A program made the position numbers and the translations under genes. A DNA stretch of 64,000 nt from Ornithinimicrobium cerasi (lineage in GTDB: Bacteria; Actinomycetota; Actinomycetes; Actinomycetales; Dermatophilaceae). The stretch spans positions 62,001-126,000 of the forward strand of contig NZ_QZMN01000003.1 in NCBI RefSeq assembly GCF_003702705.1, read 5' to 3'. Below, piece after piece: positions 593 to 63,197 of the stretch (its first letter is position 1; each line of letters opens with the position of its first letter). Below the pieces are notes generated by a model, which made no database searches, was not told where the DNA came from, and saw only the letters and a list, made by a program, of their open reading frames with translations.

Positions 593-1293
593 GCCGCCGT
601 CCGCTCGTCGTCGCGGCCCACGGCACCGCGAGCGGGGAGGGCAGGAAGGTCGTGGAGGGGTGCGCCGCGGCGGCCGCGGCCGAGCTGGGGGTCGCCCACG
701 CCGTCGGCTACGTCGACGTCTGCGGGCCGACGCTGGAGGAGGTCCTCGCGTCCGAGGGGTCGGCCGGGGCTGGTCCGGTCGTCGTCCCCTACTTCCTCGC
801 CTCGGGCTACCACGTGCGCCAGGACGTCCCGGGCGCCGTCGCCGAGGTCGCCGGCGCCCTCGTGACGCCCGCCCTGGGCGTCGAGCCGGAGGTGGTGGAC
901 GCGCTCGCGGACCGGGTGCTCGAGGTCCTGCCCGACGCCGACGGCGTGGTCGTCACCGCGGCGGGGTCGAGCGTGGACAGCGCCCGCGCCGAGGTGGCCC
1001 TGGTCGCGGACCTGCTGGGGGAGCGCCTCGGGGTGCCGACGCGGACGGCATACCTCTCGGGTCCCGGTCCACGGCCGGCGTCGGAGGTGAGCAGCCTGCG
1101 CGAGGTGGGCTGCCACCGGGTCGCGCTCGCCGCGCACCTGCTCGCGCCCGGTCACTTCCTCGACCGCGCCCACGCCGCCGCCCTCGACCTGGGGCGCGTC
1201 GCCACCGGCCCCCTCGGGACCCACCCCGCCCTCGCCGCCCTCGTCGTGCGGCGCTACCGGGAGGCGCTGGACCGACCGTCGCCGCTGTCGTGA
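589..1293 (+). CDS. Sirohydrochlorin chelatase (CbiX/SirB family)
   Basis: Predicted cytoplasmic chelatase of 234 aa that inserts Fe2+ (siroheme) or Co2+ (cobalamin) into sirohydrochlorin. It has two related half-domains: the first opens with VVAAHGT (His11, a metal/catalytic residue) and the second contains LAAHLLAPGHF with paired histidines. The GTG start overlaps the upstream permease stop. Neighbouring TauE suggests iron insertion for sulfite reductase siroheme rather than cobalamin synthesis, but the metal cannot be decided from sequence. The last codons and stop lie in the left arm of a palindromic repeat. Confidence 0.85.
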   Translation: MSRRPLVVAAHGTASGEGRKVVEGCAAAAAAELGVAHAVGYVDVCGPTLEEVLASEGSAGAGPVVVPYFLASGYHVRQDVPGAVAEVAGALVTPALGVEPEVVDALADRVLEVLPDADGVVVTAAGSSVDSARAEVALVADLLGERLGVPTRTAYLSGPGPRPASEVSSLREVGCHRVALAAHLLAPGHFLDRAHAAALDLGRVATGPLGTHPALAALVVRRYREALDRPSPLS

Positions 1294-1331
1294 CACCACG
1301 AACGCCCTGGCGACGCCTGCGGCACGACAGC
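1284..1331. repeat. Palindromic intergenic repeat, copy A
   Basis: GCTGTCGTG (1284-1292) and its exact reverse complement CACGACAGC (1323-1331) are separated by 30 nt. A second element at 46496-46569 has the same inner 9-bp arms, the same 30-nt spacing, and CGCCCTGG at the same loop offset (1303-1310 here). The left arm includes the stop codon of the upstream gene. The element lies between convergent genes, so it could also act as a terminator, but there is no T-tract. Confidence 0.6.
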
Positions 1332-1354
1332 CGGGCACACCCGTGCCGGCGGGG

Positions 1355-2209: not shown

Positions 2210-3189
2210 GACAGCTCCAGGAGGTCCAGCGGCGTGAGGTCGCCCCGCACTCCCTGGTAGCTCGGCTGCCGCAGGCGCCCCTCGCCGGGCGTGATGCCGA
2301 GGGAGGCGACGTCGATGACGACGCGCGGCTCGAGCCAGGTGGACCCGGCCGCCTCGGGCCGCGGGATGTCCGCGGTGAACGGGTATGCCGCGCGCGGCAC
2401 CTCGGCCAGCACCGCCGCCAGGGCCTCGCCCGCCCGTCCGGCCAGGCCGCTGCCCACCCGGCCCACGTAGGTCAGCCGGAACCGGCCCGCGTCGTCGCGC
2501 AACGGCATACCCTCCTCGTCGGTGCCGGGGAGGCCGACGTGCACGGCCCCGAGCCGGCTCGCGGTGCCCGTCTGCGGGCGCCACCCCCCGACCACGACGC
2601 TCATCGTGTCGCGGTGGGGGAACTTGAGCCAGTCGGAGGAGCGCACCCCCTCGGCGTAGGCGGAGCTCCTCCGCTTGCTGACCACGCCCTCGAGGCCCTG
2701 CTCGGCGGTCGCGGCCAGCAGCTGGGCGCCGTCGTCGAAGACCGGCGAGACCTGGGTACGAGGCACCTCCCGCAGCAGGTCCTCCAGGGCGGCGCGGCGC
2801 GCGGACCAGGGCAGGGTGGTGAGCGGCATACCGTCGAGGCGGAGCAGGTCGAAAGCGACGTAGGTGGCTGGCGCGGTGCGCGCGAGGTGGGCGGCCGCGG
2901 CCGCGGAGGCGGTGTGCACCCGCTCGACCACCCGGCCGAAGGAGGGCCGCCCACCGACCATGGTGACGGCCTCCCCGTCGAGCAGGAGATCGTCGGCGAC
3001 CGCGCCGAGCCCGGCGAGCTCGGGGAAGGCCGCGGCGATGTCGCGTCCGCCGCGGGTGAGCAGCCGGAGCCTCCCGTCGCCGACGTCCGCCAGCAGCCGG
3101 ATCCCGTCCCACTTGATCTCGTGCGCCCACGCCGGACCGCGCGGCGGACCGGTCCGAGGATCGCCGGGGGTGGCGAGCATGGGGCGCAT
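2206..3189 (-). CDS. ATP-dependent DNA ligase (LigD ligase-type, NHEJ)
   Basis: ATP-dependent ligase of 327 aa that would seal breaks in the Ku-dependent end-joining pathway. The nucleotidyl-acceptor motif is EIKWDGIR with Lys26. Further ligase motifs are LLDGEAV and EGVVSKRRSSAY, followed by an OB-fold (TYVGRVGSGL). ATG at 3189 is chosen because the protein begins MRPMLATP and a purine-rich stretch precedes it. The gene is divergent from ku with only 18 bp between start codons, and it is followed by the polymerase-domain gene with overlapping stop/start. Size matches ligase-only LigC/LigD-like enzymes. Confidence 0.9.
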   Translation of the reverse strand: MRPMLATPGDPRTGPPRGPAWAHEIKWDGIRLLADVGDGRLRLLTRGGRDIAAAFPELAGLGAVADDLLLDGEAVTMVGGRPSFGRVVERVHTASAAAAAHLARTAPATYVAFDLLRLDGMPLTTLPWSARRAALEDLLREVPRTQVSPVFDDGAQLLAATAEQGLEGVVSKRRSSAYAEGVRSSDWLKFPHRDTMSVVVGGWRPQTGTASRLGAVHVGLPGTDEEGMPLRDDAGRFRLTYVGRVGSGLAGRAGEALAAVLAEVPRAAYPFTADIPRPEAAGSTWLEPRVVIDVASLGITPGEGRLRQPSYQGVRGDLTPLDLLELS

Positions 3190-4936: not shown

Positions 4937-4974
4937 ACGGCATACCTGCGGAACACGATCGGCGGACGGACGCG

Positions 4975-7796: not shown

Positions 7797-8846
7797 ATGA
7801 CGCTGCGCGACGCCGACCCCGACGAGCTGGCCCGCTGGGACGACCTGGTGTGGGCCGCCCCCGGCGGGGTCGACCTCATGCAGCTCGCGCCCTACGCCGA
7901 GGTCAAGTCGGCCTCCTGGGGCCACCGTCAGATGGTGCACGAGCTCGCCGGGTTCCCCGACCTGCCGGTCCTCTACCTCGTCAAGAAGGTGCCCCCCTTC
8001 GGGCAGCTCTGGTACGCGCCGATGGGTCCGCGCGTCACCGACCCCGACCACCTGCGGGCGGTCTGCGAGGACCTGCGGTCCTCCGGCGCGTTCGCGGTGA
8101 TCATGGAGCCCGCCATCCCCGCGGAGGGCCCGCAGACGCGCCAGGAGCTGCTGGCCACCACGCCGGGGCTCGAGGACTTCATCTACCTCCAGCAGGGCAA
8201 CCACACCGTCTTCATCGACCTCACCCCCGGCGAGGAGGAGCTGCTCGCCTCCTTCCGGCAGCGAGCGCGCCGCTCCATCCGCAAGGCCGGGGACGCCGTC
8301 GTCGAGCACCGCACCGACGACGACGCCATCGAGGCGTTCTGGACGCTCTACGCGCCGACCGTCGAGCGGGCCGGCCTCCCGCTGCGGCCCAAGGACTACT
8401 ACCTCAAGGCATGGCGGCTCTACCGCGACCTGGGGCAGGGGCACGTCATCCTGGCGTCCTCCTCGGAGGAGGTCGCCGACCCGGAGGCGGGCGCCTACAT
8501 CTGGCAGCACCGCGACCACGGCTACTACCGCGACGGGGGGTCGGTGCGGACGCCGGCGGCCAACGGGCTGCAGTACCGCGTCCAGTGGGAGGCGATGCGC
8601 TGGTGCAAGGAGCGCGGCGCCACCACCTACGACCTCTTCGGTATGCCGCCGAGCTGGCTCCTGGAGGACACCACGCACCAGCTGCACGGGCTCGTGCAGT
8701 TCAAGACCGCGTTCGGGGCCGAGGTCAGCGACACCGTGGGGACCGTGCGCCTGGTGCTGGACCCGCGGCGCACGGCGGCCTGGGACCAGCTGGGCCTGCG
8801 CGTCTACAGCCGGCTCACGCGGGGGAGGAACCCGCTCTTCTACTGA
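7797..8846 (+). CDS. FemX/FemAB-family peptidoglycan aminoacyltransferase, paralogue 1
   Basis: Member of the Fem family (tandem GNAT-like folds), 349 aa. These enzymes use aminoacyl-tRNA to add residues to the lipid II stem peptide, building the interpeptide bridge at the cytoplasmic face of the membrane. Visible family features are the GQLWYAPMGPR loop, the QRARRSIRKAGDA basic segment that binds tRNA, and the C-terminal YDLFGMPP block. ATG 7797 follows a TAGGGT -10 by 7 nt, indicating leaderless transcription. It is the first of three adjacent paralogues; the middle one is on the opposite strand. The amino acid added cannot be read from sequence. Confidence 0.88.
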   Translation: MTLRDADPDELARWDDLVWAAPGGVDLMQLAPYAEVKSASWGHRQMVHELAGFPDLPVLYLVKKVPPFGQLWYAPMGPRVTDPDHLRAVCEDLRSSGAFAVIMEPAIPAEGPQTRQELLATTPGLEDFIYLQQGNHTVFIDLTPGEEELLASFRQRARRSIRKAGDAVVEHRTDDDAIEAFWTLYAPTVERAGLPLRPKDYYLKAWRLYRDLGQGHVILASSSEEVADPEAGAYIWQHRDHGYYRDGGSVRTPAANGLQYRVQWEAMRWCKERGATTYDLFGMPPSWLLEDTTHQLHGLVQFKTAFGAEVSDTVGTVRLVLDPRRTAAWDQLGLRVYSRLTRGRNPLFY

Positions 8847-8870: not shown

Positions 8871-9965
8871 TCAGAAGAAGGCGTCGCCCGGCTCCCGACG
8901 CTGAACGCGGGTGACGACGCGCTGCCCGATCCGCCGCCACACGGCATACCTGCGGGGACGCAGCACGATGTCCCAGGCCCCGACCCAGTCGGTGACCTCC
9001 TTGCTGAACCCGCGCTTGAAGATCCCCAGCCCGTGGCGCAGGTCGTCCTTGTCGTCGAGCCGGGTCGAGTGCGGGGTGCCGACGAGGTCGTAGGTGCGGG
9101 CGCCGCGCTCGATCGCCCACCGCATCCCCTCGTACTGGAGGAGCTGGCTGGCGCCCGGCACCGGGCGCTCGCGCAGGCTGGCGCCCTCCTTGTAGGCCGC
9201 GACCTCGCCGATCACGGTGACCAGCGCCCACGCGACCATCTCTCCGTCGACGCGCGCCACGACCGGCTGCGCGACCCCGCCACGCACCATCGTGCGCCAC
9301 GACTCCACGAAGTAGTCCCTGCCCCGGACCCCGAGGCCCTGGTCGCGCACCACGGCCTGCCAGATCGTCCACATCTGCTCGTAGGTCTCCTCGCTGTCGG
9401 GTGCGCGCTCGACCACGACACCGTCGCGCAGCGCCCGGCGCACCATGTTGCGGGTCTTGGAGGGGTATGCCGCGAGCAACTCCTCCTCCGACCCCGGCAG
9501 GGCGAAGATCACCGTGGAGGAGTGCGGCTGGACGGGGTCGGTGCGGACCAGACCCATCGTCTCCAGCGCGGCCAGCGCCTCGGGCGTCTCGCGGATCTCG
9601 GGCTCGATGCGCACGAACAGGACGCCCTCCTCGCGGGCCGCCTCACGCAGCTGGTCGACGAGCGGGCGCAGGGCCTCGACGTCGTCCACGCACGGACCCT
9701 TGGGCAGGTACCAGACCGTCCCGAAGCCCGGCGCCCGCTTGCTGTGGATCGTCATCGCGACACCCTCGGCGCCCTCGGCGCCCTCGGCGCCGTCGGCGCC
9801 CCCGCCCACCCGGCCCGCGGACACGGCATACCTGGGTGTCCACCGCGCCATCCGCTTGACCTGGCCCAGCGCGTGACTCTGGTAGACGTTCCCCCCGTTC
9901 GGGGTCGCCGCGATGCGGGCGTCCCACTCGGCCGCGGACGGGGAGCTGAGGAACGTCAGGGGCAT
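8871..9965 (-). CDS. FemX/FemAB-family peptidoglycan aminoacyltransferase, paralogue 2
   Basis: Fem-family ligase of 364 aa, convergent with paralogue 1 and divergent from paralogue 3. It shows the same layout: a WYLPKGP loop near residue 95, the PSKTRNMVRRALRDG basic helix, and the C-terminal YDLVGTPHSTR block. An insertion with GAEGAEGAEG repeats near residues 58-70 is unusual and probably a flexible loop. ATG 9965 is chosen over GTG 9974 because TAAGGT lies 7 nt before it, fitting a leaderless start. Three paralogues imply a bridge of more than one residue or more than one acceptor step. Confidence 0.88.
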   Translation of the reverse strand: MPLTFLSSPSAAEWDARIAATPNGGNVYQSHALGQVKRMARWTPRYAVSAGRVGGGADGAEGAEGAEGVAMTIHSKRAPGFGTVWYLPKGPCVDDVEALRPLVDQLREAAREEGVLFVRIEPEIRETPEALAALETMGLVRTDPVQPHSSTVIFALPGSEEELLAAYPSKTRNMVRRALRDGVVVERAPDSEETYEQMWTIWQAVVRDQGLGVRGRDYFVESWRTMVRGGVAQPVVARVDGEMVAWALVTVIGEVAAYKEGASLRERPVPGASQLLQYEGMRWAIERGARTYDLVGTPHSTRLDDKDDLRHGLGIFKRGFSKEVTDWVGAWDIVLRPRRYAVWRRIGQRVVTRVQRREPGDAFF

Positions 9966-11121: not shown

Positions 11122-12000
11122 TCAGGCCGGCAGCCGGTAGCGGTCGCCCGCGAGCGGTTCCACCAGCCCGTCGGCGACGAGCGCGTCGAGGCACCGGTCG
11201 CGCTGGCCCTCGTCCGGCCACACCGCCCGCAGGCGGGCGCCGTCGACCGGCCCGTCCGCGTCGCGGAGCAGCTGGACCATGCGACCGCGGCACTGCCGGT
11301 CCGTGCCCTCCCACGCCTGTCCCCGGCGTGGGGGTCCCTGGTGGGCGGGCGACCCGGCCAGCCGCCAGGCGCACCGGTCGGCGACCGGGCAGGCCGGGCA
11401 GCGGGGCGCGCGCGCGGTGCACACCAGCGCGCCGAGCTCCATGACCGCGACGTTCCAGGTCGCGGCCTCGGCGTCGTCCTCGGGGAGCAACGAGGTGGCG
11501 AGGTCCACCTCGGCACGGGTGAGCGAGGGTGCGGGCAGGGCGGTCCCGGTGACGGCGCGGGCGTGCACCCGTCGCACGTTGGTGTCGACGACCGTCGCGC
11601 GTGCGCCGAAGGCGAAGGCCGCCACCGCCGCCGCCGTGTACTCACCGATGCCGGGCAGGGTGCGCAGCGTCGCCTCGTCCTCGGGCACCCGGCCGCCGTG
11701 GAGGTCGCGGATCGCGACGGCGGCCGCGTGCAGCCGCAGCGCCCGTCGGGGGTAGCCGAGGCGTCCCCACTCCCGCACGGCCTCCCCGGGTGACGCGTCG
11801 GCCAGGCGGGAAGGGGTGGGCCACAACGTCATCCACCGCTCCCAGACCGGGAGCACCCGGACGACCGGGGTCTGCTGGAGCATGACCTCGGAGACCAGCA
11901 CCTCCCACGGCGAGCGCTGCGGGCGGCGCCAGGGGAGGTCGCGCCGGCTGGCGGCATACCACTCCAGGACGGGGGTGTGCAGCAGCTCGGGTGCGGGCAC
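11122..12000 (-). CDS. mutY: A/G-specific adenine glycosylase MutY
   Basis: Base-excision repair glycosylase of 292 aa that removes adenine mispaired with 8-oxoguanine. It contains the helix-hairpin-helix (LPGIGEYTAAA), the catalytic Asp region (VVDTNVRRV) and the iron-sulfur cluster motif C-x6-C-x2-C-x5-C (CTARAPRCPACPVADRC). MLQQT in the N-terminal domain is the family signature. The C-terminal NUDIX-like 8-oxoG domain seems short or absent compared with E. coli MutY (350 aa). GTG 12000 overlaps the disA stop by one base, so it is translationally coupled to disA. Confidence 0.92.
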   Translation of the reverse strand: MPAPELLHTPVLEWYAASRRDLPWRRPQRSPWEVLVSEVMLQQTPVVRVLPVWERWMTLWPTPSRLADASPGEAVREWGRLGYPRRALRLHAAAVAIRDLHGGRVPEDEATLRTLPGIGEYTAAAVAAFAFGARATVVDTNVRRVHARAVTGTALPAPSLTRAEVDLATSLLPEDDAEAATWNVAVMELGALVCTARAPRCPACPVADRCAWRLAGSPAHQGPPRRGQAWEGTDRQCRGRMVQLLRDADGPVDGARLRAVWPDEGQRDRCLDALVADGLVEPLAGDRYRLPA

Positions 12001-16565: not shown

Positions 16566-17383
16566 CCTCCGCGCACATCCCCGTCCACCTCTCCTCCTCC
16601 TCCGTCTACCCCGAGAACGCCGCGTACGCCTTCGACCTGGCGCAGCGGCTCGGTTACGACGGCGTGGAGATCATGGTGTGGACGGACCCGGTCACCCAGG
16701 AGGCCGGGGCGCTGCGCGCGCTCGCGGACCTGCACGAGATCACGATCGGCGCCATCCACGCGCCCACCCTGCTCCTCGCGCAGCGGCTCTGGGGCTGGGA
16801 GCCCTGGGGCAAGATCGAGCGGGCGCTCGACCTCGCGGGCGAGGTGGGGGCGCAGTGCGTGGTCGTGCACCCGCCGTTCCGGTGGCAGCGGGGGTATGCC
16901 GAGGGTTTCGTCGAGGGGGTGGCGGACCGGCAGGCGCGCTGGGGCATCGACATCGCCGTCGAGAACATGTTCCCCTGGCGCTCCGGCGTGAACGCCATGC
17001 AGGCCTACCTCCCGGGCCCGGACCCCCGCGACTTCCCCTACGGGGCTGTCACGCTCGACATCTCGCACGCCGCGACCGCGGGGATGGACCCGGTGCAGAT
17101 GGCCCAGGATCTCGGCGAGCGCGTGCGTCACCTCCACCTCGGTGACTCCTTCGGCTCCTTCAAGGACGAGCACCTGGTGCCCGGGCGCGGGTCGCAGCGG
17201 TGCGACGAGGTGCTGCGGCACTACGCCGACCACGCCTTCAGCGGGATCGTCAGCGTCGAGGTGGGCACCCGGCGGATGAGGACCCCCGCCCGGGAGCTGG
17301 CGCTCGCCGAGTCGCTCGCCTTCGCGCGCACGCACCTGGGCCAGCACGATCTTCCGGGCGCGACGCTCGAGCCCACCCGCTGA
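16562..17383 (+). CDS. Sugar phosphate isomerase/epimerase-like TIM-barrel protein
   Basis: Xylose-isomerase-like/AP-endonuclease 2 TIM barrel, 273 aa, probably a metal-dependent isomerase, epimerase or dehydratase. Likely metal ligands are Glu in GVEIMVW, His in IGAIHAPT and CVVVHPPF, Glu in AVENMF, Asp/His in LDISHAAT, His in HLHLGDS, and Glu in VSVEVG. Translationally coupled to ppx by ATGA overlap, a pairing common in actinobacteria near proline genes. The substrate is unknown. Confidence 0.8.
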
Positions 17384-21061: not shown

Positions 21062-21308
21062 GCCCGCCCCTCCGCGGCCCTGACCGGCCCGCCCGGGCGC
21101 GCCACATGGCATACCCCTCTGTCGCCCCCGCACCACGCTCCCCTCGCGTCGCGTCTGTCCCAGTCGGCGTGTCGCGCTGGACAAATCTCCCGTCACGACT
21201 TTCGCAACGACCACTTCTGCCCCTAGTGTTGGCCCGACACCCAGATACGTGGCGGCGGTCCGGAGGGGAAGCCGAGCCCGCAGCCACCCAGAAGAGACGA
21301 GACGTCCT

Positions 21309-39158: not shown

Positions 39159-39175
39159 GGGGAGCGGGTATGCCG

Positions 39176-39734: not shown

Positions 39735-39740
39735 TACCCT
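39735..39740 (+). promoter_or_regulatory. -10 box of menC, overlapping a GGCATACC motif
   Basis: TACCCT ends 6 nt before ATG 39747. It is part of GGCATACCCT, so the dispersed octamer (39731-39738) contributes the first four bases of the -10 hexamer. Confidence 0.5.
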
Positions 39741-42958: not shown

Positions 42959-44881
42959 ATGAACGACTTCTCTTCCCTCGCCTCCGGGCACGGGCTGGGC
43001 GACCGCGGCGGACGCGGCGACCGCGGTCCCGGCTCCGGTTCCCGCCGCGACCCCCGCGACCAGGCCCAGCTCCGGGCCCACCCGGTCAGCGGCCGACGCG
43101 TCCTGGCCCTCTTCGCCCCGCACCGCTGGCCGGTCGCCGTGGTGCTCACCCTCATCGTCACCAGCTCGGCGCTCGGGCTGGCCAGCCCCTTCCTCGTCAA
43201 GGAGATCGTGGACGTCGCGATCCCCGAGCAGGACGTGCGGCTGCTCCTGATCCTCGTCGGCGTGATGGTCGGGGTGGCCGTCGTCACCGCCGTGCTCGGC
43301 GTCGTCCAGACCTGGATCAGCACGACGGTCGGGCAGCGGATCATGCACCGGCTGCGGACCGACCTGTTCACCCACGTGCAGCGCCAGCCGCTGAGCTTCT
43401 TCACCCGCACGCGCTCGGGCGAGGTGCAGTCACGGCTCACGCACGACGTCTCGGGGCTCCAGGGGGTCGTCACCTCGACCGCCACCTCGCTGGCGGGCAA
43501 CGTCGCCACCGTGGTCGGCACCCTCGTCGCGATGCTCGCGCTGAGCCCGACCCTGGCGGTGCTCTCGCTCGTGGTCATCCCGCCCGCCGTTCTCGTCACG
43601 CGCTCGGTCGCCCGGCTGCGGCGCGACGCGACCGACAAGCGGCAGAAGGCGCTCGCCTCGCTGCACGGCCAGGTGGAGGAGTCGCTGTCCGTCAGCGGCG
43701 CCCGGCTGAGCAAGACGCTCGGGGCGGGGGAGCAGCTCGCCCAGCGCTTCGCCGGGTCGAGCTCCGGGCTGCTGGACCTCGAGGTCGCCGCCCAGATCGC
43801 CGGGCGGTGGCGCACCGCCACGATGGGCATCGTCTTCGCCGTGGTCCCGGCCGCGCTCTACCTCGTCGCCGGCCTGCCCGTGACCGGCGCCGGGATCTCG
43901 ATCGGGACGCTCGTCGCCTTCACCGCGCTGCAGGCCGGGATCTTCCGGCCGGTGATGGGGCTGCTGTCGCTCGGCGTGCAGGTGACGGCCTCGATGGCGC
44001 TGTTCAGCCGCATCTTCGAGTACCTCGACCTCCCGCTCGACGTCGCCGAGCCGACCCCCGACCGGGCCCGCCACCTCGACCCGGCCACCGCCCGCGGCGA
44101 GCTGCGGCTCGAGGGCGTCAGCTACACCTACGACGCGGACGCCGACGACGCGCACGCGGCGCTCACCGACGTCGACCTCGTCATCCCCGCCGGCGCCACC
44201 GTCGCGCTGGTCGGCCGGACCGGGTCGGGCAAGAGCACCCTCGCGTCCCTGCTCACCCGCCTCGACGACCCGACGAGCGGTCGCGTGACCCTCGACGGCG
44301 TCGACCTGCGCGACCTGCCCTCCGCCGAGCGCGCCGCCGTGATGGGCGTGGTCTCCCAGGAGACCTACCTCCTGCACGCGACCGTCCGCGAGAACCTGCG
44401 GTTCGCCAACCCCGACGCCACCGACGAGCAGCTCGAGCAGGCCGCGCGCGACGCGCAGGTCCACGAGCTCATCGCCTCGCTGCCGCAGGGCTACGACACC
44501 GTGGTCGGCGCCCGCGGCCACCGGTTCTCCGGCGGGGAGCAGCAGCGCCTGGCGCTGGCCCGCACGCTGCTGCGCGACCCGCAGGTGCTCGTCCTGGACG
44601 AGGCGACGAGCGCGCTCGACACCCGCACCGAGGCCGCCGTCCAGACCGCCCTGGCCCGGGTGGGCCGGGGTCGGACGGTCGTGATGATCGCCCACCGGCT
44701 CTCCACGGTGCGAGACGCCGACCTGGTCGTCGTGCTCGACGGGGGCAGGGTCGTCGAGCAGGGGACCCACGAGGATCTCCTCGAGCTCGGGGGCAGGTAT
44801 GCCGCGCTCGTCGCCGCGGGGGTCCGCGACGGGTCCTCCGGGGCCCGCGCGGACGACGGGCCGATGACGCTCGCCGCCTGA
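42959..44881 (+). CDS. ABC exporter, fused membrane and ATPase domains
   Basis: Type IV ABC half-transporter of 640 aa: a Gly/Arg-rich N-terminus (1-45), six TM segments (about 50-340), then an ATPase domain with Walker A VGRTGSGKST, Q-loop SQETYLL, signature FSGGEQQR, Walker B VLVLDEAT and H-loop AHRLS. It would act as a homodimer exporting a drug, lipid or peptide. ATG 42959 has AAAGGAGAAG upstream. Divergence from a MarR gene suggests an inducible efflux pump. A dispersed octamer copy lies inside its last codons and another just after the stop. Confidence 0.93.
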   Translation: MNDFSSLASGHGLGDRGGRGDRGPGSGSRRDPRDQAQLRAHPVSGRRVLALFAPHRWPVAVVLTLIVTSSALGLASPFLVKEIVDVAIPEQDVRLLLILVGVMVGVAVVTAVLGVVQTWISTTVGQRIMHRLRTDLFTHVQRQPLSFFTRTRSGEVQSRLTHDVSGLQGVVTSTATSLAGNVATVVGTLVAMLALSPTLAVLSLVVIPPAVLVTRSVARLRRDATDKRQKALASLHGQVEESLSVSGARLSKTLGAGEQLAQRFAGSSSGLLDLEVAAQIAGRWRTATMGIVFAVVPAALYLVAGLPVTGAGISIGTLVAFTALQAGIFRPVMGLLSLGVQVTASMALFSRIFEYLDLPLDVAEPTPDRARHLDPATARGELRLEGVSYTYDADADDAHAALTDVDLVIPAGATVALVGRTGSGKSTLASLLTRLDDPTSGRVTLDGVDLRDLPSAERAAVMGVVSQETYLLHATVRENLRFANPDATDEQLEQAARDAQVHELIASLPQGYDTVVGARGHRFSGGEQQRLALARTLLRDPQVLVLDEATSALDTRTEAAVQTALARVGRGRTVVMIAHRLSTVRDADLVVVLDGGRVVEQGTHEDLLELGGRYAALVAAGVRDGSSGARADDGPMTLAA

Positions 44882-44904
44882 GCGGCATACCCGTCAGGAA
44901 CGCG

Positions 44905-45381: not shown

Positions 45382-46128
45382 GTGGCTGCGACCAGGCCCG
45401 ACGTCGTCCTCACCTCCGCCGTGGAGGTGGCGAGGGCCGCCGCGGAGGAGATCGCCGAGCCGGGCACGGTGGGCGAGCACCTCGGCGTCGTCATGGAGGG
45501 CGACCGGGTGGCGACGCACTCGTTCGGCTGCACCGCGACGGCATACCCCGGGTGGCACTGGGCGGTGACCCTCTCGCGCGTCCCCCGCGCGCGCAAGGCG
45601 ACGATCAGCGAGGTGCACCTGCTCCCGTCCGAGGGCGCGCTCCTGTCCCCCGAGTGGGTCCCGTATGCCGAGCGGCTCGCCCCGGGCGACATCGGCGCCG
45701 GTGACCTGACGCCCTACGTCGAGGAGGACCCTCGGCTCGAGGCCGGCTGGGAGGCGACCGGTGAGGAGGACGTCGACCAGGTCGCGATCTGGGAGCTGGG
45801 TCTGGGACGCGAGCGCGTGCTGTCGGCGGAGGGCCGCGAGGCGGCGGCGACCCGTTGGCAGGAGGGTGAGCACGGTCCGGAGAGCGAGGTGGCCCGCAAG
45901 GCCCCGAGACCCTGCGGGACCTGCGGCTTCTTCCTGCCGATGGCGGGCGCGCTGCGCTCGGTCTTCGGGGTCTGCGCCAACGAGTGGTCGCCCGCCGACG
46001 GGTCGGTGGTGTCCCTGCGGTTCGGCTGCGGCGCGCACAGCGAGGTCGACGTGGAGCGGCGCGAGCCCGAGCGCATCGACCCGCCGGTGCTCGACGACGA
46101 GAGCGAGATCGAGTTCGTCGACCGCTGA
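45382..46128 (+). CDS. DUF3027 protein with cysteine motif
   Basis: Conserved actinobacterial protein of 248 aa, paired with the cold-shock gene with only 2 bp between them. The N-terminal domain contains DRVATHSFGCTATAYPGWHWAVTLSR (split here by the dispersed octamer, encoding TAYP). The C-terminal CGTCGFFLP...GVCANEW...FGCGAHSE supplies four cysteines that could bind zinc. No function is known; co-occurrence with the Csp suggests RNA- or stress-related work. Confidence 0.85.
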   Translation: MAATRPDVVLTSAVEVARAAAEEIAEPGTVGEHLGVVMEGDRVATHSFGCTATAYPGWHWAVTLSRVPRARKATISEVHLLPSEGALLSPEWVPYAERLAPGDIGAGDLTPYVEEDPRLEAGWEATGEEDVDQVAIWELGLGRERVLSAEGREAAATRWQEGEHGPESEVARKAPRPCGTCGFFLPMAGALRSVFGVCANEWSPADGSVVSLRFGCGAHSEVDVERREPERIDPPVLDDESEIEFVDR

Positions 46129-48483: not shown

Positions 48484-50316
48484 ATGTCGTTCACGACCCG
48501 TCCCACCCTGACCGGAACCGTCGGCATGGTGTCCACCACGCACTGGCTGGCCTCCCAGTCGGCCATGCGGATGCTCGAGCTGGGCGGGAACGCCGCCGAC
48601 GGCGCCGTCGCCGCCGGCCTCGTGCTGCAGGTCGTCGAGCCGCACCTCAACGGACCGGGTGGTGACCTGCCGCTGATCGTCGCCTCCGCCGACGACCCGA
48701 CGCCCCGGGTGCTCTGCGGCCAGGGCCCCGCCCCGGCCGGCGCCACGCCCGAGCACTTCGCCTCCGTCGGCCTGGACCGCGTGCCCGGCTCCGGACCGCT
48801 CGCGACGGCCGTCCCCGGCGCCTTCGACGCGTGGATGGTGCTGCTGCGCGACCGCGGCACGATGAGCGCACGCACCGTCGCCGAGCCGGCCCTGCACTAC
48901 GCCCGCCACGGCCACCCCGTCCTCGAGCGCGTCTGCCGGACGATCGAGACGGTCCGTGACCTCTTCACCGAGTCGTGGCCCACCTCGGCCGACCAGTGGC
49001 TGCCCGGAGGGGTGGTCCCGACCCCCGGGAGCCTGGTCACCAACATCGCGTGGGCGGACACCCTCGAGCGGCTCCTGGCCGAGGAGGACGCGGCCGGGGG
49101 GAGTCGGGAGCAGGGCCTCGAGGCCGTGCGCCGCGCCTGGTCGCAGGGGTTCGTCGCCGAGGCCGTGGACGCGTTCGTGCGGCAGCCGTCCCGGCACTCC
49201 GGCGGGCAGGTGCTCCCTGGCGTCCTCACCGCCCAGGACATGGCCGGCTTCGAGGCGACGTGGGAGGACGCGGTCACCCTCGACTGGCACGGGCACACGA
49301 TCGCCAAGACCGGGCCCTGGGGGCAGGGCCCGGCGCTGCTGCAGGTCCTGCAGATGGTCGACGCCGCGGGCGCCACCGACCTCGACACCGCGGACGGGGT
49401 GCACACCCTCGTCGAGGCGTGGAAGCTGGCGATGGCGGACCGCGAGGCCTGGCTCGGCGACAGTGCCGACGTCCCCCTCGGGGACCTTCTCGACCCCGGG
49501 TATGCCGCGCAGCGCGCCTCGCTCATCGGCCCGGACGCCAGCCTGGAGCTGCGCCCCGGGTCCCCGGGCGGCCGCCCGCCCCGGATCGCCGCCCAGGCCC
49601 GGCTCGTCGAGGGCGCCCCGGACGTCGACGCGAGCGTCGGAGAGCCGACCGTGCAGCGCGAGTCGGCGTCCCCCGGCGCACGGCCCGCCCCGCCCGCCGA
49701 CCCCCAGGTGGCTGCCGACGGGGAGACCCGCGGCGACACCTGCCACGTCGACGTCGTCGACCGCTGGGGCATGCTCGTGTCCGCCACGCCGAGCGGCGGC
49801 TGGCTGCAGTCCTCGCCGTTCATCCCCGAGGTGGGCCTGGCGCTCGGGAGCCGTCTGCAGATGGCGTGGCTCGAGCAGGGCCTGCCCAGCTCGCTCGTCC
49901 CCGGACGGCGACCGCGGACCACCCTCACGCCCACGCTCGTGCTGCGCGACGGCATACCCGTCCTCGCCTGCGGCAGCCCCGGCGGTGACCAGCAGGACCA
50001 GTGGCAGAGCGTCTTCCTCCTGCGCCACCTCGTCGGCGGGCTGTCCCTGCAGGAGGCCATCGACGCGCCGCAGCTGCACACCACGAGCTTCCCCGGCAGC
50101 TTCCACCCCCGCGCGACCGAGCCCGGCGTCGTCGTCGTCGAGTCGCGCCTCGACCCGGCGGTCACCGAGAAGCTGCGCCGTCGTGGCCACCGGGTCGTCG
50201 AGGAAGGCCCCTGGTCCCTCGGCCGGATGTGCGCGGTCGCCCGCGACCCGCGCACCGGCATCGTGTCCGCCGGCGCCAACCCCCGGGGGATGCAGGGCTA
50301 CGCCGTCGGACGTTGA
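48484..50316 (+). CDS. Gamma-glutamyltransferase family Ntn-hydrolase
   Basis: Self-processing Ntn-hydrolase of 610 aa related to gamma-glutamyltranspeptidase. The predicted autocatalytic nucleophile is Thr419 in GETRGDTCHVDVVD, preceding the small subunit; GGLS...PQLHTTSF and SPGGDQQDQ resemble the substrate loops. No N-terminal signal peptide is seen, so it may be cytoplasmic, unlike typical GGTs. Actinobacterial homologues act on gamma-glutamyl or acyl-amide substrates; the substrate is unknown. Two octamer copies lie in the gene. Confidence 0.88.
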   Translation: MSFTTRPTLTGTVGMVSTTHWLASQSAMRMLELGGNAADGAVAAGLVLQVVEPHLNGPGGDLPLIVASADDPTPRVLCGQGPAPAGATPEHFASVGLDRVPGSGPLATAVPGAFDAWMVLLRDRGTMSARTVAEPALHYARHGHPVLERVCRTIETVRDLFTESWPTSADQWLPGGVVPTPGSLVTNIAWADTLERLLAEEDAAGGSREQGLEAVRRAWSQGFVAEAVDAFVRQPSRHSGGQVLPGVLTAQDMAGFEATWEDAVTLDWHGHTIAKTGPWGQGPALLQVLQMVDAAGATDLDTADGVHTLVEAWKLAMADREAWLGDSADVPLGDLLDPGYAAQRASLIGPDASLELRPGSPGGRPPRIAAQARLVEGAPDVDASVGEPTVQRESASPGARPAPPADPQVAADGETRGDTCHVDVVDRWGMLVSATPSGGWLQSSPFIPEVGLALGSRLQMAWLEQGLPSSLVPGRRPRTTLTPTLVLRDGIPVLACGSPGGDQQDQWQSVFLLRHLVGGLSLQEAIDAPQLHTTSFPGSFHPRATEPGVVVVESRLDPAVTEKLRRRGHRVVEEGPWSLGRMCAVARDPRTGIVSAGANPRGMQGYAVGR

Positions 50317-50754: not shown

Positions 50755-51434
50755 GGATGGAGCACCTGCGGGTCGACTACGCCGGCGACGGGCTCGCCGA
50801 GGAACGCTGCCCCGCCGCACCCCTGGAGATCGTGCGGGAGTGGGTCGCGACCGCCGTCTCGCGCCACGCCGAGCACGGTGACGTGCCCGAGCCGACCGCC
50901 TTCGCGGTCGCGACGGTCGACGCCGACGGGCTGCCCGACGTGCGGACGGTGCTGATGCGCGGCCTCGACGAGCGGGGGCCGGCGTTCTACACCAACACCG
51001 ACTCCGCCAAGGGGCGTCAGCTGCGCGACAACCCCGCGGTGGCCGCGACCCTGACCTGGGCCGGGCTGCACCGGGCGGTCCGTTTCCGTGGGCTGGCGGA
51101 GCCGCTGGCCGCCGAGGAGGTCCGCGCCTACTTCGTGAGCCGGCCCTGGGCCTCGCGCATCGGCGCGCACGCCTCCGCCCAGTCGCACCCGGTGAGCGAC
51201 CGGGAGAGCCTGGAGAGGGCATACCAGGAGTGCGCGGAGCGCTTCCCGGACACCGGCAGCCCGGACGACGTCCCGGTGCCCGCGGACTGGGGCGGCTACC
51301 GCATCGTCGTCGACCGCGTCGAGCTGTGGGCCGGGCGGCGTTCGCGGCTGCACGACCGGATCGTCTGGGAGCGCGTCGGTGCCGGGGGGATGGACGACCC
51401 GGCGGCCTGGCGACGGGTGCGTCTCGCGCCGTAG
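50751..51434 (+). CDS. pdxH: Pyridoxamine 5'-phosphate oxidase PdxH
   Basis: FMN-dependent split-barrel oxidase of 227 aa that makes pyridoxal 5'-phosphate from PNP or PMP. Family blocks: MRGLDERGPAFYTNTDSAKGRQL (FMN binding), AAEEVRAYFVSRPWASRIGAHASAQSHPV, and the C-terminal RLHDRIVWER. ATG 50751 overlaps the upstream stop; ATG 50757 is a second option. The PLP made would serve hemL and others. Confidence 0.94.
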   Translation: MRMEHLRVDYAGDGLAEERCPAAPLEIVREWVATAVSRHAEHGDVPEPTAFAVATVDADGLPDVRTVLMRGLDERGPAFYTNTDSAKGRQLRDNPAVAATLTWAGLHRAVRFRGLAEPLAAEEVRAYFVSRPWASRIGAHASAQSHPVSDRESLERAYQECAERFPDTGSPDDVPVPADWGGYRIVVDRVELWAGRRSRLHDRIVWERVGAGGMDDPAAWRRVRLAP

Positions 51435-56605: not shown

Positions 56606-56961
56606 CGGGTCTGCCGTGGGGCGCGGCCCTGCTCGTCGTCGCTGTGGGCGGCGCGCTCGGCGCGGTGCTGCGCCACCTGCTCTCCATGCCGCCCCTGGGA
56701 CCCTTCCGCGGCGTGCTGCTCGTCAACGTGCTCGGCTCGGCGGCCCTCGGTGCGCTGGTGGCGGGGGCCGACCGGCTCCCGACGACGGCGGTGCTGCTGC
56801 TCGGGACCGGGCTCTGCGGGGCGATGACCACCTGGAGCACCCTCGCGGTGCAGACGTGGGAGCTGGGACGGCGCGACGCGGTGAGGGCGGCGGCATACCT
56901 GCTGGTCACGCTGGTGCTGGGGGTCGCCGCGGCGGTGCTCACCCTGCGCCTCCTCTCCTGA
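56602..56961 (+). CDS. crcB: Fluoride exporter Fluc/CrcB, subunit B
   Basis: Second fluoride channel subunit of 119 aa, four TM segments, with GGALGAVLRHLL, LLVNVLGSAAL and GLCGAMTTWSTLAVQTW. The Phe-box phenylalanine of subunit A (TTFS) is Trp here (TTWS), consistent with an asymmetric heterodimer. GTG 56602 overlaps subunit A. A small hairpin (CCGTGT-GACCG-ACACGG, 56971-56987) follows. Confidence 0.92.
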   Translation: MTGLPWGAALLVVAVGGALGAVLRHLLSMPPLGPFRGVLLVNVLGSAALGALVAGADRLPTTAVLLLGTGLCGAMTTWSTLAVQTWELGRRDAVRAAAYLLVTLVLGVAAAVLTLRLLS

Positions 56962-58346: not shown

Positions 58347-61033
58347 GGCTGCACCGGCTGACCCTGCGCAACGTCAAGGGGGTCCGTGCACGGACCGTGG
58401 AGCTGCCCGATTCCGGGGTCGTCGTCCTGGAGGGTCCCAACGAGATCGGCAAGACGACCCTGCTCGAGGCCTTCGACGCGCTGCTGGCCTACAAGTCCAG
58501 CTCCCGCGCCGCCGACGTCCGGGCCCTGCAGCCCGTCGACCGCGACGAGGCGCCGGAGGTGGAGGCGGAGTTCACGGTGGGCGGCACCCGGGTGCGCTAC
58601 GCCAAGCGATGGTTGCGCCAGCCGTCCACCACCCTGCACGTCCTCGGTGCTCGTCCGCAGCAGCTGACCGGCGACCGGGCGCAGCAGCACGTCGACGCGC
58701 TCCTGGACACCCACCTCGACCGCACCCTCTTCGACGCGCTCCGCTACGCCCAGGCGGGGGACGGCTCGGTGGCGCCCCTCGTGTCCAGCACGGTCCTGAC
58801 CGCTGCCCTGGACGCCGCCGCGGGTGCGCGTCAGCACGCCGAGGGCTCCGAGGCCATCCTCGAGCGGGTGGATGCCGAGTACAGGCTCTACTTCACGGCA
58901 ACGGGCCGACCGACGGGCGACTACCGCGCTGCCATGGCCAGGCAGACCCAGGCCCAGGACGACGTGGCCGAGGCCCATCGCCGGGTCGAGGAGGGCAGCG
59001 AGCTGCTGCTGCGGCAGAGGCGTGCACGCGGGTGGGTCGCCCGCCGGCAGGCGGAGCTCGACGAGGCCCGCCGTGAGCTCGCGCTGGCCGAGCGGGCGGC
59101 CGTGGCGGTCCGGGAGGTCACCGCCAGGCACGAGGCTGCGCTCGAGGCGCTGGCCCAGGCGCAGGAGCTGCGTGCCGGCGCGGTCCGCGCGCTGGCGCAG
59201 CGCGAGCGGCTCGTCAGTGACGAGAGGACCCTGACGTCCTCCCTCGAGGTCGCGCGGCGGTCGCGGTCGGCGGACACGGAGCAGGCCGACCAGCTGCGGG
59301 CCGCCCTGCTGGCCGCGGAGGAGGACGCCGCACGCGCGGCCAGGGCCGTCGAGGACGCCGAGGCCGTCGAGGAGCTCGCGCGCGCCGATGCCGGCCACCT
59401 GGCGGACGTCCGGCAGCTCGCCGAGAGCGAGTCCCTGCTGCGCCGGGCCGGCCAGCTCGTCGAGGAGGTCCGTCACGCCCGGCAGCAGCTGCCCGCACAG
59501 CCGGTCCCCCGTGACGTCGCGCGACGCGTCCGACGGCTCCAGGACCGCCACGACGTCCTGGTCACCCAGCACACGGCCACGACGCCGGCCCTCGCGGTGG
59601 AGTCCCTGGGCGCGGACGTGCACGTCCGCGTCGCCGACGGTTCCGACCCGGTGGTGGTGGTGGCCGGCACCGCAGGGCGCATCGGCGTCAGTCACGACAC
59701 CACGGTGGAGGTCCCCGGCGGGGTGCGGATCCGGGTGCTCCTGCCCGAGGAGGCCCTGGGGCGGGTCTCCCAGATCGAGACGCTGCGCGACCAGCTCCAG
59801 CGCGAGCTGGAGGAGCTGGGTGCGGGCAGCGTCGAGGAGGTCGACGCCCTCGCGGACGACACCGAGTCCGCGCACGGCGCGCTCCGGGACGCCGTGCGCG
59901 ACGCCGAGGCCGTGCTCCGACCCTTCGGCTCGGCGCTGGCGGCGCAGGCCGCGAGCGGTGTGCTGCCGGCAGTCCTGCAGGAGAGGGTCGAACAGGTGCG
60001 TCGGCAGGTCCGCCAGCATGCCGACGCGCGCAGCGCCGAGGGTCCCCTGCCGACGGACGAGAGCGAGGCACGGGCCGTCGTCGAGTCTGCCGCCGTGGTG
60101 CTGAGGGCGGCCCGGGCGGAGCAGCGCAGGACCGGATCAGTGTTCGCGACGAGTCGGGAGGCGGTGACCGCGCTCACCCGACGGCTGGACCAGGCCGAGG
60201 GACGGATCGAGGCTGACTCGGCACGCCTGGGCACGCTGCAGGCCCAGCTCGCGGCGACGCGGGGCGAGGCGTCCGACGCGGAGCTCCGCGAGCGGCTGAC
60301 CGCGCACGAGGAGCGGTCCCTCGCCGCGGGGGAGGCCGTGCGTGCCGCGGCGCTGGCGGTGGCGGCCGCGGACGTCGACGAGGTGCTCACCACCCTGAGC
60401 CGGTCGCGCGCCCGGGCGGAGGTGGCCGTCAGGACCAGGGAGACCGCGCTCGCCGAGCTCAACGCCCTCAACGGCCAGGTGGAGATGGCGGCGGGGGAGG
60501 GGCGGCAGGAGCTCTACGACCTGGCGGTCGCCGTTCTCGACGACGCCGAGCGCGAGCTGCAGGCCATCGACCGGCGCGCCCGTGCGGCGCGGCACCTCCG
60601 GACCACCCTCACCGAGCACCGGGAGGCGGCCCACCGGCTGTACGTCCAGCCGTACACCAGGGCGGTGGAGGAGCTCGGTCGCTCCGTCTACGGATCGACG
60701 TTCGGCGTGACGGTCGACGAGGACCTGAGCCTGTCCGCCCGCACCCTCGACGGCGTGACGGTGCCCTACGCCGAGCTGTCCGGCGGGGCCAAGGAGCAGC
60801 TGGGGATCCTGGCCAGGCTGGCGGTGGCCCGGCTCGTCGACCCTGAGCACGGCTGTCCGGTGGTCATCGACGACGCGCTCGGCTACTCCGACCCGCAGCG
60901 CCTTCGCAGGATGGGCGAGGTCCTCGGCTCCGCGGCGGGCCGGGCCGGTGAGGTGCAGGTCATCCTGCTCACCTGCACCCCCGAGCGGTATGCCGCGATC
61001 CCCGACCTGCGGACGGTGCGCCTCACGGCCTGA
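58343..61033 (+). CDS. SbcC/YhaN-like SMC-type ATPase without a CxxC hook
   Basis: SMC-like ATPase of 896 aa. N-terminal Walker A is EGPNEIGKTTLLEAF (residues about 32-46); the C-terminal signature LSGGAKEQLGILARLA and Walker B CPVVIDDALGYSD lie near residues 812-855. Two coiled-coil arms (about 190-375 and 465-760) flank a beta-rich central segment (about 405-460: VHVRVADGSDPVVVVAGTAGRI, continuing TVEVPGGVRIRVLLP). No CxxC zinc hook is present; the only cysteines visible are in HGCPVV and LLTCTP. Paired with the SbcD-like nuclease, it resembles the YhaN-YhaO group more than classical SbcC. Confidence 0.88.
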   Translation: MRLHRLTLRNVKGVRARTVELPDSGVVVLEGPNEIGKTTLLEAFDALLAYKSSSRAADVRALQPVDRDEAPEVEAEFTVGGTRVRYAKRWLRQPSTTLHVLGARPQQLTGDRAQQHVDALLDTHLDRTLFDALRYAQAGDGSVAPLVSSTVLTAALDAAAGARQHAEGSEAILERVDAEYRLYFTATGRPTGDYRAAMARQTQAQDDVAEAHRRVEEGSELLLRQRRARGWVARRQAELDEARRELALAERAAVAVREVTARHEAALEALAQAQELRAGAVRALAQRERLVSDERTLTSSLEVARRSRSADTEQADQLRAALLAAEEDAARAARAVEDAEAVEELARADAGHLADVRQLAESESLLRRAGQLVEEVRHARQQLPAQPVPRDVARRVRRLQDRHDVLVTQHTATTPALAVESLGADVHVRVADGSDPVVVVAGTAGRIGVSHDTTVEVPGGVRIRVLLPEEALGRVSQIETLRDQLQRELEELGAGSVEEVDALADDTESAHGALRDAVRDAEAVLRPFGSALAAQAASGVLPAVLQERVEQVRRQVRQHADARSAEGPLPTDESEARAVVESAAVVLRAARAEQRRTGSVFATSREAVTALTRRLDQAEGRIEADSARLGTLQAQLAATRGEASDAELRERLTAHEERSLAAGEAVRAAALAVAAADVDEVLTTLSRSRARAEVAVRTRETALAELNALNGQVEMAAGEGRQELYDLAVAVLDDAERELQAIDRRARAARHLRTTLTEHREAAHRLYVQPYTRAVEELGRSVYGSTFGVTVDEDLSLSARTLDGVTVPYAELSGGAKEQLGILARLAVARLVDPEHGCPVVIDDALGYSDPQRLRRMGEVLGSAAGRAGEVQVILLTCTPERYAAIPDLRTVRLTA

Positions 61034-61062: not shown

Positions 61063-63165
61063 TCAGGCCCGCGCGTCTGCCAGCACGCGCCGGGTGCTGG
61101 ACCCAGGACGCAGGTCCAGCCGACGCAGCAGCTGGGCGTTCGCCGCCACCACGACCGTGGAGGCCGACATCAGGATGGCGCCGACGCTCATCGGGAGCAC
61201 GAAGCCGACCGGGGCGAGGACGCCGGCCGCGAGCGGGACGGCGGCGAGGTTGTAGCCCGCGGCCCACCACAGGTTCTGCCTCATCTTCCGGTAGCTGGCG
61301 CGGGACAGCTCCACGACGGAGAGCACGGAGCGGGGGTCCGAGCTGGCCAGGATCACCCCGGCCGAGGCGATGGCCACGTCCGTGCCCGCGCCGATGGCGA
61401 TGCCGACATCGGCCTGGGCCAGGGCTGGTGCGTCGTTCACGCCGTCCCCGACGAACGCGACCTTCAGGCCCTCCTCCTGGAGCTCCGCCACCTTGGCCGA
61501 CTTGTCCTCCGGTCGCACCCCGGCGAAGACGCGGTCGATGGCCAGCTCGCCGGCGACGGACTCCGCGACCGCCTGCGCGTCACCGGTGATCATCACGACC
61601 TGGATCCCCAGCGAGTGCAGCGCCTCGACGGCCTCGCGCGACTCCGACCTGATCTCGTCGGCCACGCGCAGGGCGCCCACAGTCCTGCCGTCGACGAGGA
61701 CGTGCAGGACGGTGGCCCCCTCCTCGTGCCACCGCCGGGACACGGGCAGCTCGTCGAGGCCGTGCTCCTCCAGCAGGTACGGACCGCCGACGCGCACCGT
61801 CCTGCCGGCCACCGAGGCCGTGACACCCACCGCTGGGGAGGAGGAGAAGTCTGAGGACGCGGGCACGGTCAGCTCCCTGGCGAGGGCAGCACCGACGACG
61901 GCCCGGGCGAGGGGGTGCTCGCTGTCCGCCTCTGCGGCCGCCGCGAGCGCCAGCACCTCGTCGACCTCGCGACCGTCGACGGGCCGGACGGCGGTGACGG
62001 TCGGCTCACCCCGGGTGAGGGTGCCGGTCTTGTCGAACAGCACCGCGTCAACCGTGCGCATGGTCTCCAGGGCGAGACGGTCCTTCACGAGGACGCCGCC
62101 GCGGGCGGCGCGCTCGGTCGCGATGGAGACGACGAGCGGGATCGCCAGCCCGAGGGCGTGCGGGCAGGCGATCACGAGCACGGTGACGGTGCGGACGACG
62201 GCCATGTCGGGCATACCGAGCACGGTCCACACGAGCGCCGTGACCGCTGCCGCCGAGAGGGCGAACCAGAAGAGCCACCCGGCCGCCCGGTCCGCGAGAC
62301 GCTGGGCCCGCGAGGACGACGCCTGCGCCTGTGCCACCAGCCGCTGGATGCCTGCCAGCGTGGTCTCCTCCCCGGTGGCGGTCACCTCGACGCGCAGACC
62401 GGAGTCGGTCGCCACCGTGCCGGCCACGACGGTGTCCCCCACCTCCCTGCGGACCGCCTTCGACTCGCCCGTGACCATGGCCTCGTCCATGCTCGCGCCG
62501 CCCTCGACGATCCGGCCGTCGGCCGGGACCGCCCCGCCCGGCCGCACGAGCACGACGTCACCCGTCCGCAGCTGCGAGGGCGGCACCCGGACGGTCCCCC
62601 CGTCCTCGACCCGCTCCGCCTCGTCGGGGAGCAGGGCGGCGAGCGAGTCGAGCGCCGAGGTGGTCCGGGCGAGGGACCGCATCTCGATCCAGTGCCCGAG
62701 CAGCATGATCACGATGAGCAGGACCAGCTCCCACCAGAAGTCCAGCTCGTGCGGCAGGAGCCCCAGGCTGGCGCCGGCGGAGGCGAGGAACGCGACGCTG
62801 ATCGCGAGGCCGATGAGCAGCATCATCCCCGGGCGACGCCCGCGCACCTCCGCCACCGCCCCGGTGAGGAACGGCCGGCCACCCCAGGCGAAGACGACGG
62901 TGCCCAGCACGGGGGAGATCCACCGGGTCCAGCCGGCGCCGGGCACCTCGTACCCGACCAGGTCGGCGAACATCGGGCTGAAGGCGACCACGGGGAGCGC
63001 CAGGACCAGCATGATCCAGAAGAGGCGTCTGAACTGCCCCACGTGGTCGCCGTGACCCTCGTGCCCGTGCTCGCCGTGGGCCTCGTGGTGCTGCCCGCGT
63101 GGTGACCCGTGTCCGTCGTGCGCTTCCGGCTCGGCCGTGTCCCGGTGGTGCTGGTGCTCGCTCAT
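61063..63165 (-). CDS. copB: Copper-translocating P1B-type ATPase (CopB-like)
   Basis: Metal-exporting P-type ATPase of 700 aa. The N-terminal 42 residues are rich in His (HQHH, HDGHG, HHEAHGEHGHEGHGDH), replacing CxxC domains. About eight TM segments follow; the metal site in TM6 is CPH (Cys334-Pro-His336) as in CopB/P1B-3 enzymes. The phosphorylated Asp378 is in DKTGT, and TGES and GDGVNDAPAL complete the set. A CsoR-type palindrome lies about 15 bp upstream, inside the end of the osmC gene. Confidence 0.95.
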   Translation of the reverse strand: MSEHQHHRDTAEPEAHDGHGSPRGQHHEAHGEHGHEGHGDHVGQFRRLFWIMLVLALPVVAFSPMFADLVGYEVPGAGWTRWISPVLGTVVFAWGGRPFLTGAVAEVRGRRPGMMLLIGLAISVAFLASAGASLGLLPHELDFWWELVLLIVIMLLGHWIEMRSLARTTSALDSLAALLPDEAERVEDGGTVRVPPSQLRTGDVVLVRPGGAVPADGRIVEGGASMDEAMVTGESKAVRREVGDTVVAGTVATDSGLRVEVTATGEETTLAGIQRLVAQAQASSSRAQRLADRAAGWLFWFALSAAAVTALVWTVLGMPDMAVVRTVTVLVIACPHALGLAIPLVVSIATERAARGGVLVKDRLALETMRTVDAVLFDKTGTLTRGEPTVTAVRPVDGREVDEVLALAAAAEADSEHPLARAVVGAALARELTVPASSDFSSSPAVGVTASVAGRTVRVGGPYLLEEHGLDELPVSRRWHEEGATVLHVLVDGRTVGALRVADEIRSESREAVEALHSLGIQVVMITGDAQAVAESVAGELAIDRVFAGVRPEDKSAKVAELQEEGLKVAFVGDGVNDAPALAQADVGIAIGAGTDVAIASAGVILASSDPRSVLSVVELSRASYRKMRQNLWWAAGYNLAAVPLAAGVLAPVGFVLPMSVGAILMSASTVVVAANAQLLRRLDLRPGSSTRRVLADARA

Positions 63166-63180
63166 GGGTGCGACAACGGC

Positions 63181-63197
63181 ATACCCCTAGGGGGTAT
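63181..63197. promoter_or_regulatory. CsoR-type copper operator upstream of copB
   Basis: ATACCCC-TAG-GGGGTAT, a palindrome with 7-bp arms, matches the GC-rich operators of CsoR copper sensors. It lies 16 bp before the copB start and overlaps the stop codon of the osmC gene (63187-63189). The left arm merges with a GGCATACC octamer (63178-63185). Confidence 0.65.

Follow-up and report, generated by a model that had tools for sequence, protein, structure and literature searches.

A probable DNA uptake sequence in Ornithinimicrobium cerasi and its dialects among related actinobacteria

A stretch of 64,000 nucleotides from the genome of Ornithinimicrobium cerasi (contig NZ_QZMN01000003.1, positions 62,001 to 126,000; hereafter the window) contains 30 copies of the octamer GGCATACC, 19 on the plus and 11 on the minus strand, between positions 1047 and 63185. 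The word is abundant throughout the genome, the genus and the family, and in several related genera another abundant word is found instead. We propose that GGCATACC, more exactly R-CGGCATACC, is probably an uptake sequence for natural transformation. This reading was the first choice of the original prediction, which was made from the window alone. It is supported by the abundance of the word, its dialects, the absence of chromosomal polarity in the genus mate G011, its conservation, a motif-free prophage and the occurrence of ComEC and T2SSF proteins; from these we infer preferential uptake, a receptor and its place, and the type of pilus. Genomes, contigs, loci and genera are referred to below by handles beginning with G, C, L and g, respectively.

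The recount of the window reproduced the predicted number of about 30 copies with the same distribution between the strands, as well as the 37 matches to GCATAC and the 27 copies extending to CGGCATACC. The G+C content, predicted to be about 73%, was measured as 73.9%, and the occurrence of the word in both orientations and several reading frames was also seen. In 100 dinucleotide shuffles of the window GGCATACC occurred 0.66 times on average and at most 3 times. Under a third-order Markov model it is the top octamer of the window, with 30 copies against 1.14 expected; CGGCATAC, which overlaps it, is found 32 times. Octamers of the same composition or its complement are represented by 2110 words with a total of 7294 occurrences, a mean of about 3.5. 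This comparison was also called for by the original prediction; the mean is far below the count of GGCATACC, and two unrelated words, TCGTCGAG (47) and TCGACGAC (46; complements included in both counts), are commoner than it. Synonymous-codon shuffling of the genes in the window, which are our own rough predictions, yielded 0.88 copies on average and never more than 5 in 300 trials, versus 17 observed; this is the codon-preserving shuffle that the original prediction had called for, and the chance reading fails it. In 400 kb of G011 the corresponding mean was 11.5 versus 150 observed. The other 13 of the 30 copies in the window lie outside the gene calls. The claim that the word forces ATA isoleucine codons holds at 29601 and 49951, where it is read as GGC-ATA-CC in phase 0; the third position named, 36377, is outside the gene calls. 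The copies of GGCATACC in the window are the following:

1047..1054, plus strand, copy
2382..2389, minus strand, copy
2504..2511, plus strand, copy
2825..2832, plus strand, copy
4939..4946, plus strand, copy
8640..8647, minus strand, copy
8943..8950, plus strand, copy within a FemAB-like gene
9464..9471, minus strand, copy within a FemAB-like gene
9825..9832, plus strand, copy within a FemAB-like gene
11953..11960, plus strand, copy
16893..16900, minus strand, copy
21108..21115, plus strand, copy lacking the C at -1 (one of three such)
24315..24322, minus strand, copy
29601..29608, plus strand, copy in phase 0 (GGC-ATA)
36377..36384, minus strand, copy
37091..37098, plus strand, copy
39167..39174, minus strand, copy between two predicted genes
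39731..39738, plus strand, copy
40676..40683, plus strand, copy
42494..42501, minus strand, copy
44796..44803, minus strand, copy close to the end of an ABC transporter gene
44884..44891, plus strand, copy directly past the ABC transporter gene
45540..45547, plus strand, copy within a DUF3027 gene
49499..49506, minus strand, copy within a gamma-glutamyltranspeptidase gene
49951..49958, plus strand, copy within the same gamma-glutamyltranspeptidase gene, in phase 0 (GGC-ATA)
51218..51225, plus strand, copy lacking the C at -1
56892..56899, plus strand, copy
60987..60994, minus strand, copy within an AAA/SMC-like ATPase gene
62210..62217, plus strand, copy lacking the C at -1
63178..63185, plus strand, copy between two predicted genes, with an imperfect inverted partner after it

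The prediction of a genome-wide DNA signal is supported. The whole genome contains 1127 copies of GGCATACC (549 forward and 578 reverse), compared to 18 of the word read backwards. Between 285 and 2180 copies are present in 31 of the 32 genomes of the genus. The remaining genome of the genus, G023, is an outlier with 38 copies and none in the 36 kb read. The family (Serinicoccus/Ornithinimicrobium, Knoellia, Intrasporangium and others) was sampled with 149 genomes from 53 genera, and a genome was regarded as motif-rich if it contained at least 120 copies of GGCATACC and more than three times its reversed control. By this threshold 89 of the 149 genomes are motif-rich; their strand totals are nearly equal (34938 forward, 35033 reverse). 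Beyond the family, 22 further genomes of the order have no more than 111 copies each, and the highest of them, G046, shows a mild excess (111 versus 24 for the reversed control). Among the best 80 of a larger number of loci matched by the ComEC protein of G011, Serinicoccus and Ornithinimicrobium come first, followed by Janibacter, Knoellia, Intrasporangium, Humibacillus, Phycicoccus and others, genera which we take to be Dermatophilaceae in the GTDB sense.

The consensus of 156 sites in 464 kb is R-C-GGCATACC, with C at -1 in 97% of the sites and A seldom (5%) at the base 3′ of the octamer. The word is not a palindrome, since its complement GGTATGCC differs from it. Its spacing is clustered, with a coefficient of variation of 1.26 versus 0.99 for random placement, and even spacing was not found. 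Its density is 1.6 to 2.3 fold higher outside predicted genes, and within them the reading phases antisense 1 and sense 2 are preferred. In the genus, dnaA gave a full-score match in 31 of 32 genomes and a weak one in G020, and a dif-like site occurs once per genome in 31 of 32 and twice in G009. The check for strand and origin-terminus bias suggested by the original prediction was made in the single-contig genome G011 and revealed no polarity: over 760 kb, locus L124 included, 199 copies are on the leading and 170 on the lagging strand (p 0.14), and the numbers within 200 kb of dif are 105 and 92.

Conservation in relatives, likewise suggested for checking, was found. Homologous stretches of six genus mates and the window, together with 11 comEC loci, were compared. 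After 50 gapped cases had been dropped, 491 ordered comparisons were left, and in 284 of them the aligned copy of GGCATACC was intact. Flanking octamers were intact in 1965 of 8939 cases (22%) and other octamers with three A/T bases in 33%. Since the ordered pairs come from related genomes and so lack independence, this result indicates a direction and should not be read as a P value. One-mismatch forms of CGGCATACC are also in excess in 767 kb of G011 (476 versus 199 expected), an excess that is not specific to uptake.

The search for other words covered 40 to 140 kb of each of 16 motif-poor relatives and, at the 80 named loci, stretches of at most 22 kb. Several genera poor in GGCATACC contain another abundant word, namely CGGCGTAC, CGGCATCC, CCGCATCG or, in Janibacter, CCCCTTCG. 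The GGCATACC/CGGCATACC word and the first three of these differ from one another stepwise around GC-T. In 140 kb of G079, CGGCATCC occurs 139 times versus 14.5 expected (92 versus 18 by codon shuffling), and in 120 kb of G109 CCGCATCG occurs 109 times versus 21.9 expected. CGGCGTAC is enriched in the samples of G076 and G093, and G077 shows the core GGCGTAC. Whole-genome counts identify ten genomes, from six genera (g3, g45, g46, g47, g62 and g69), with 1125 to 4185 copies of CGGCGTAC and 11 to 142 of GGCATACC. They include G076 (2216), G077 (1359), three genomes of g62 (3903, 2111 and 4185), two of g69 (2618 and 2366) and two of g3 (2529 and 1125); the reversed controls in these high-count genomes amount to 143 to 310. 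Lower counts were obtained in other genomes of g69 and g3 (785 in G155, 345 in G033 and 347 in G135). A switch is seen within the genus g47: G121 contains 1463 copies of CGGCGTAC and 11 of GGCATACC, G147 contains 177 and 1694, respectively, and G078 is intermediate with 374 and 347. Only two of the 15 CGGCGTAC-rich genomes are also rich in GGCATACC, and the enrichments of the two words are negatively correlated (rho -0.47, from related and hence not independent genomes).

In Janibacter and Marihabitans CCCCTTCG (CCCCCTTCG) replaces CGGCATAC on both strands. It exceeds its reversed control in all seven Janibacter loci (L154, L157, L160, L173, L175, L180 and L204) and in the Marihabitans locus (L174), thus in eight of eight, and these loci form a single group in the ComEC tree. 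The word labels of this tree are based on no more than about 22 kb per species and a hard threshold, so that several of the "none" labels in Serinicoccus and Intrasporangium are probably false negatives. The genome of Serinicoccus sediminis (G018), labeled CGGCATCC in the tree, contains 1363 copies of GGCATACC. No outstanding word was detected in six sampled loci of Phycicoccus sensu stricto or in the samples of G174, G134, G094, G067, G110, G101 and G135; the genera of G134 and G135 have a mild to strong excess of CGGCGTAC in whole-genome counts. When pooled sequences of Phycicoccus and of Streptomyces were ranked against codon shuffles, nothing comparable appeared among their top words. In the Streptomyces pool ATCCGCAA stands at 56 versus 2.8 by the Markov model, yet it is not among the top words by codon shuffle. 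A separate observation concerns G139 (L101-L103), where unusual repeated 9-mers (CTCCGCTAA, CCGCACCTA and their neighbours) resemble a local repeat family.

The genes expected for DNA import are widespread in the family. ComEC is encoded in 145 of the 149 genomes, 146 encode T2SSF domains of pili or secretion systems, and the comEA-comEC operon of G011 is intact. PilM of type IVa pili has a match in five genomes and none in the other 144. The check for com and type IV pilus genes suggested by the original prediction found ComEC and T2SSF nearly everywhere and PilM seldom. A link to type IVa pili was rejected on this ground, and there is no reason to expect a minor pilin of the ComP-like type IVa sort. 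In the genome of the window, the comEC gene is split into two halves lying 40 kb apart on one contig, with a prophage between them:

G000, contig C66, about 47.8-88.2 kb (L122, L222, L123), outside the window, prophage inside comEC

Nine proteins of this region were compared with the PHROGs database; one is a half of comEC, and of the eight from the insert six matched. One of the six is an integrase at the comEC border, which also resembles DNA invertases and is thus probably a large serine integrase. The others are a DnaB-like helicase, a tail fibre protein, a weakly matched neck protein and two proteins of unknown function. The cut site corresponds to the Gly-Ser codons of the conserved stretch SAVSGSNVA. 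In G018 and G167 the C-terminal part of comEC begins at the same place, and in G101 it begins about four codons earlier. The prophage of 40.3 kb, a single case, contains no copy of GGCATACC versus 11.9 expected.

If GGCATACC acts as an uptake sequence, some component of the uptake machinery would bind DNA with a preference for tagged molecules. Either a pilin or the tip protein of a Tad/Flp-type pilus, or else ComEA, would probably have this role. The tagged DNA would be imported through ComEC, and recombination would install the tag in the chromosome. Because tagged fragments would be taken up more often, the tag would accumulate by molecular drive and mark DNA of the same kind. A change of the receptor would be followed by the tag, and dialects would arise in this way. 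The tags may persist in a strain that may not now import DNA.

Several observations weigh against the proposal of an uptake sequence. ComEC and T2SSF are near universal, and consequently neither tracks the motif; nor does PilM, so that this applies to all three competence and pilus genes tested. Because its comEC is interrupted, the genome of the window may be incompetent now. Of the 149 family genomes, 47 pass the threshold for neither GGCATACC nor CGGCGTAC, although some of them use other words, and the Janibacter word CCCCTTCG shows no sequence relationship with the others and falls outside the GC-T series. Position 4 of the motif is conserved at 0.69, below the flank mean of 0.79. Of the 476 one-mismatch forms, 212 differ at the two end positions; the inner forms number 264 versus 167 expected, and several of them show no excess. 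Neisseria and Haemophilus have an excess of close inverted pairs of their uptake sequences; here few such pairs were seen, without excess, and a terminator role was rejected on this ground. The largest stretch free of the motif in 400 kb of G011 consists of 25 kb of core DNA and is improbable as a chance gap at the density found there (0.0008 expected):

G011:C1:1805323-1830559 (L050, L051), largest motif-free stretch, holding uvrB, rpsA, polA and pyruvate kinase

The Neisseria DNA uptake sequence (DUS) is reportedly biased to genome-maintenance genes, and the location of uvrB and polA in a motif-free stretch runs against such a bias. The second-largest motif-free stretch of G011, of 14.6 kb, contains two phage integrases; ten proteins were scanned in the two stretches. 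A one-mismatch gradient is tied to molecular drive in the abstract of Bakkali 2007 (PMC1939737), which also describes the same gradient for other abundant words.

The explanation that survives best beside the uptake sequence, though we regard it as unlikely, is a genome-wide mark for another chromosomal process, kept by selection, such as the target of an orphan methylase or the site of a nucleoid-associated protein. HIP1 in cyanobacteria may be a selected chromosomal mark of this kind. The abundance of the word on both strands, its enrichment between genes, its conservation and the motif-free prophage fit such a mark as well, and an altered protein specificity would likewise yield dialects; the one-mismatch gradient, by the abstract of PMC1939737, does not speak for uptake in particular. 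However, the word is not a palindrome, its copy number varies widely within one genus (285 to 2180 in 31 genomes) with no obvious need for such a dose, and the replacement of the whole set within a genus is most simply expected from biased uptake and recombination.

The recombination hotspot named as an alternative by the original prediction would be a Chi-like site read by RecBCD or another helicase-nuclease. In E. coli, Chi has a density of the same order as this word, phages are often without it, and RecC is the subunit that reads it. A RecC domain is present in 31 of the 32 genus genomes. However, at E 0.001 no match to RecC was obtained in 58 of the 89 motif-rich family genomes, and 50 of these 58 have a completeness of 90% or more. 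RecC also shows no association with the motif, being present in 31 of 89 motif-rich versus 29 of 60 other genomes (Fisher p 0.13). This shows that a Chi site of RecBCD is not the general explanation, and with the leading-strand bias also absent in G011 a Chi-like role is improbable. An FtsK-orienting polar sequence (KOPS) or another polarity motif, suggested by a long plus-strand run in the site listing of contig C1, is refuted, as that run is an artefact of the listing, both strands being present in the DNA itself, and the orientation does not flip at dif in G011. An origin of the word by chance from codon usage or protein motifs, for which the preferred reading phases might speak, is refuted by the codon shuffles in the window and G011 and opposed by the higher density outside predicted genes.

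The proposed uptake sequence can be compared with systems that are already known. HIP1 is a very abundant intragenic octamer on both strands and a palindromic GCGATCGC-type word. The comparison with it made in the original prediction holds for abundance, intragenic placement and occurrence on both strands, but GGCATACC lacks the palindrome, so the likeness is loose. The uptake signal sequence (USS) of the Pasteurellaceae has AT-rich flanks, which the present word lacks; the words are also unrelated, and inverted pairs are not in excess here. Both have a core of about nine bases, hundreds to thousands of copies and dialects within one family, as far as the USS is described in the portions of a 2016 review used here (PMC5031613). 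The DUS of the Neisseriaceae, in the portions used of Frye et al. 2013 (PMC3630211), has 943 to 5918 copies per genome and dialects in which sister taxa differ by few bases around a conserved core, while some members have none. GGCATACC resembles it as a short word on both strands with hundreds to thousands of copies and family-wide dialects. It differs in the unrelated word, the monoderm hosts of high G+C content, the lack of PilM matches in 144 of 149 genomes and the inverted pairs, which are not in excess. Micrococcus luteus is an actinobacterium in which Tad pili serve transformation, according to parts of PMC4322843, and the organisms studied here are likewise actinobacteria with comEA-comEC and with T2SSF-type pilus genes; the term uptake sequence does not occur in the main text of that paper. 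Sequence-specific uptake is ascribed to two families, Pasteurellaceae and Neisseriaceae, in the same portions of the 2016 review. Among the open-access papers searched, no title reports an uptake sequence in Actinobacteria, although a report may exist elsewhere, and neither GGCATACC nor GGTATGCC occurs as a whole word. Of six related words, one each occurs in two papers which, by their titles, deal with a symbiont genome and with Ralstonia typing.

On balance we lean towards the view that the tagging of self-DNA has originated independently a third time, in monoderm actinobacteria that have Tad/Flp-type pili. There would be uptake dialects throughout the family (CGGCATACC, CGGCGTAC, CGGCATCC, CCGCATCG and the unrelated CCCCTTCG in Janibacter), and prophages would disable the import channel by inserting at a conserved site of comEC. 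Even if uptake were the wrong explanation, a word that is present in up to thousands of copies and respelled between sister genera calls for one. If the proposal is true, self-recognition by DNA tags would have evolved once more, for a third time, in bacteria that lack an outer membrane and use another kind of pilus. Natural competence would be predicted in many genera for which we know of no report of it. The tag would then provide a handle for transforming these genera, and the dialect switches would offer a route to the receptor.

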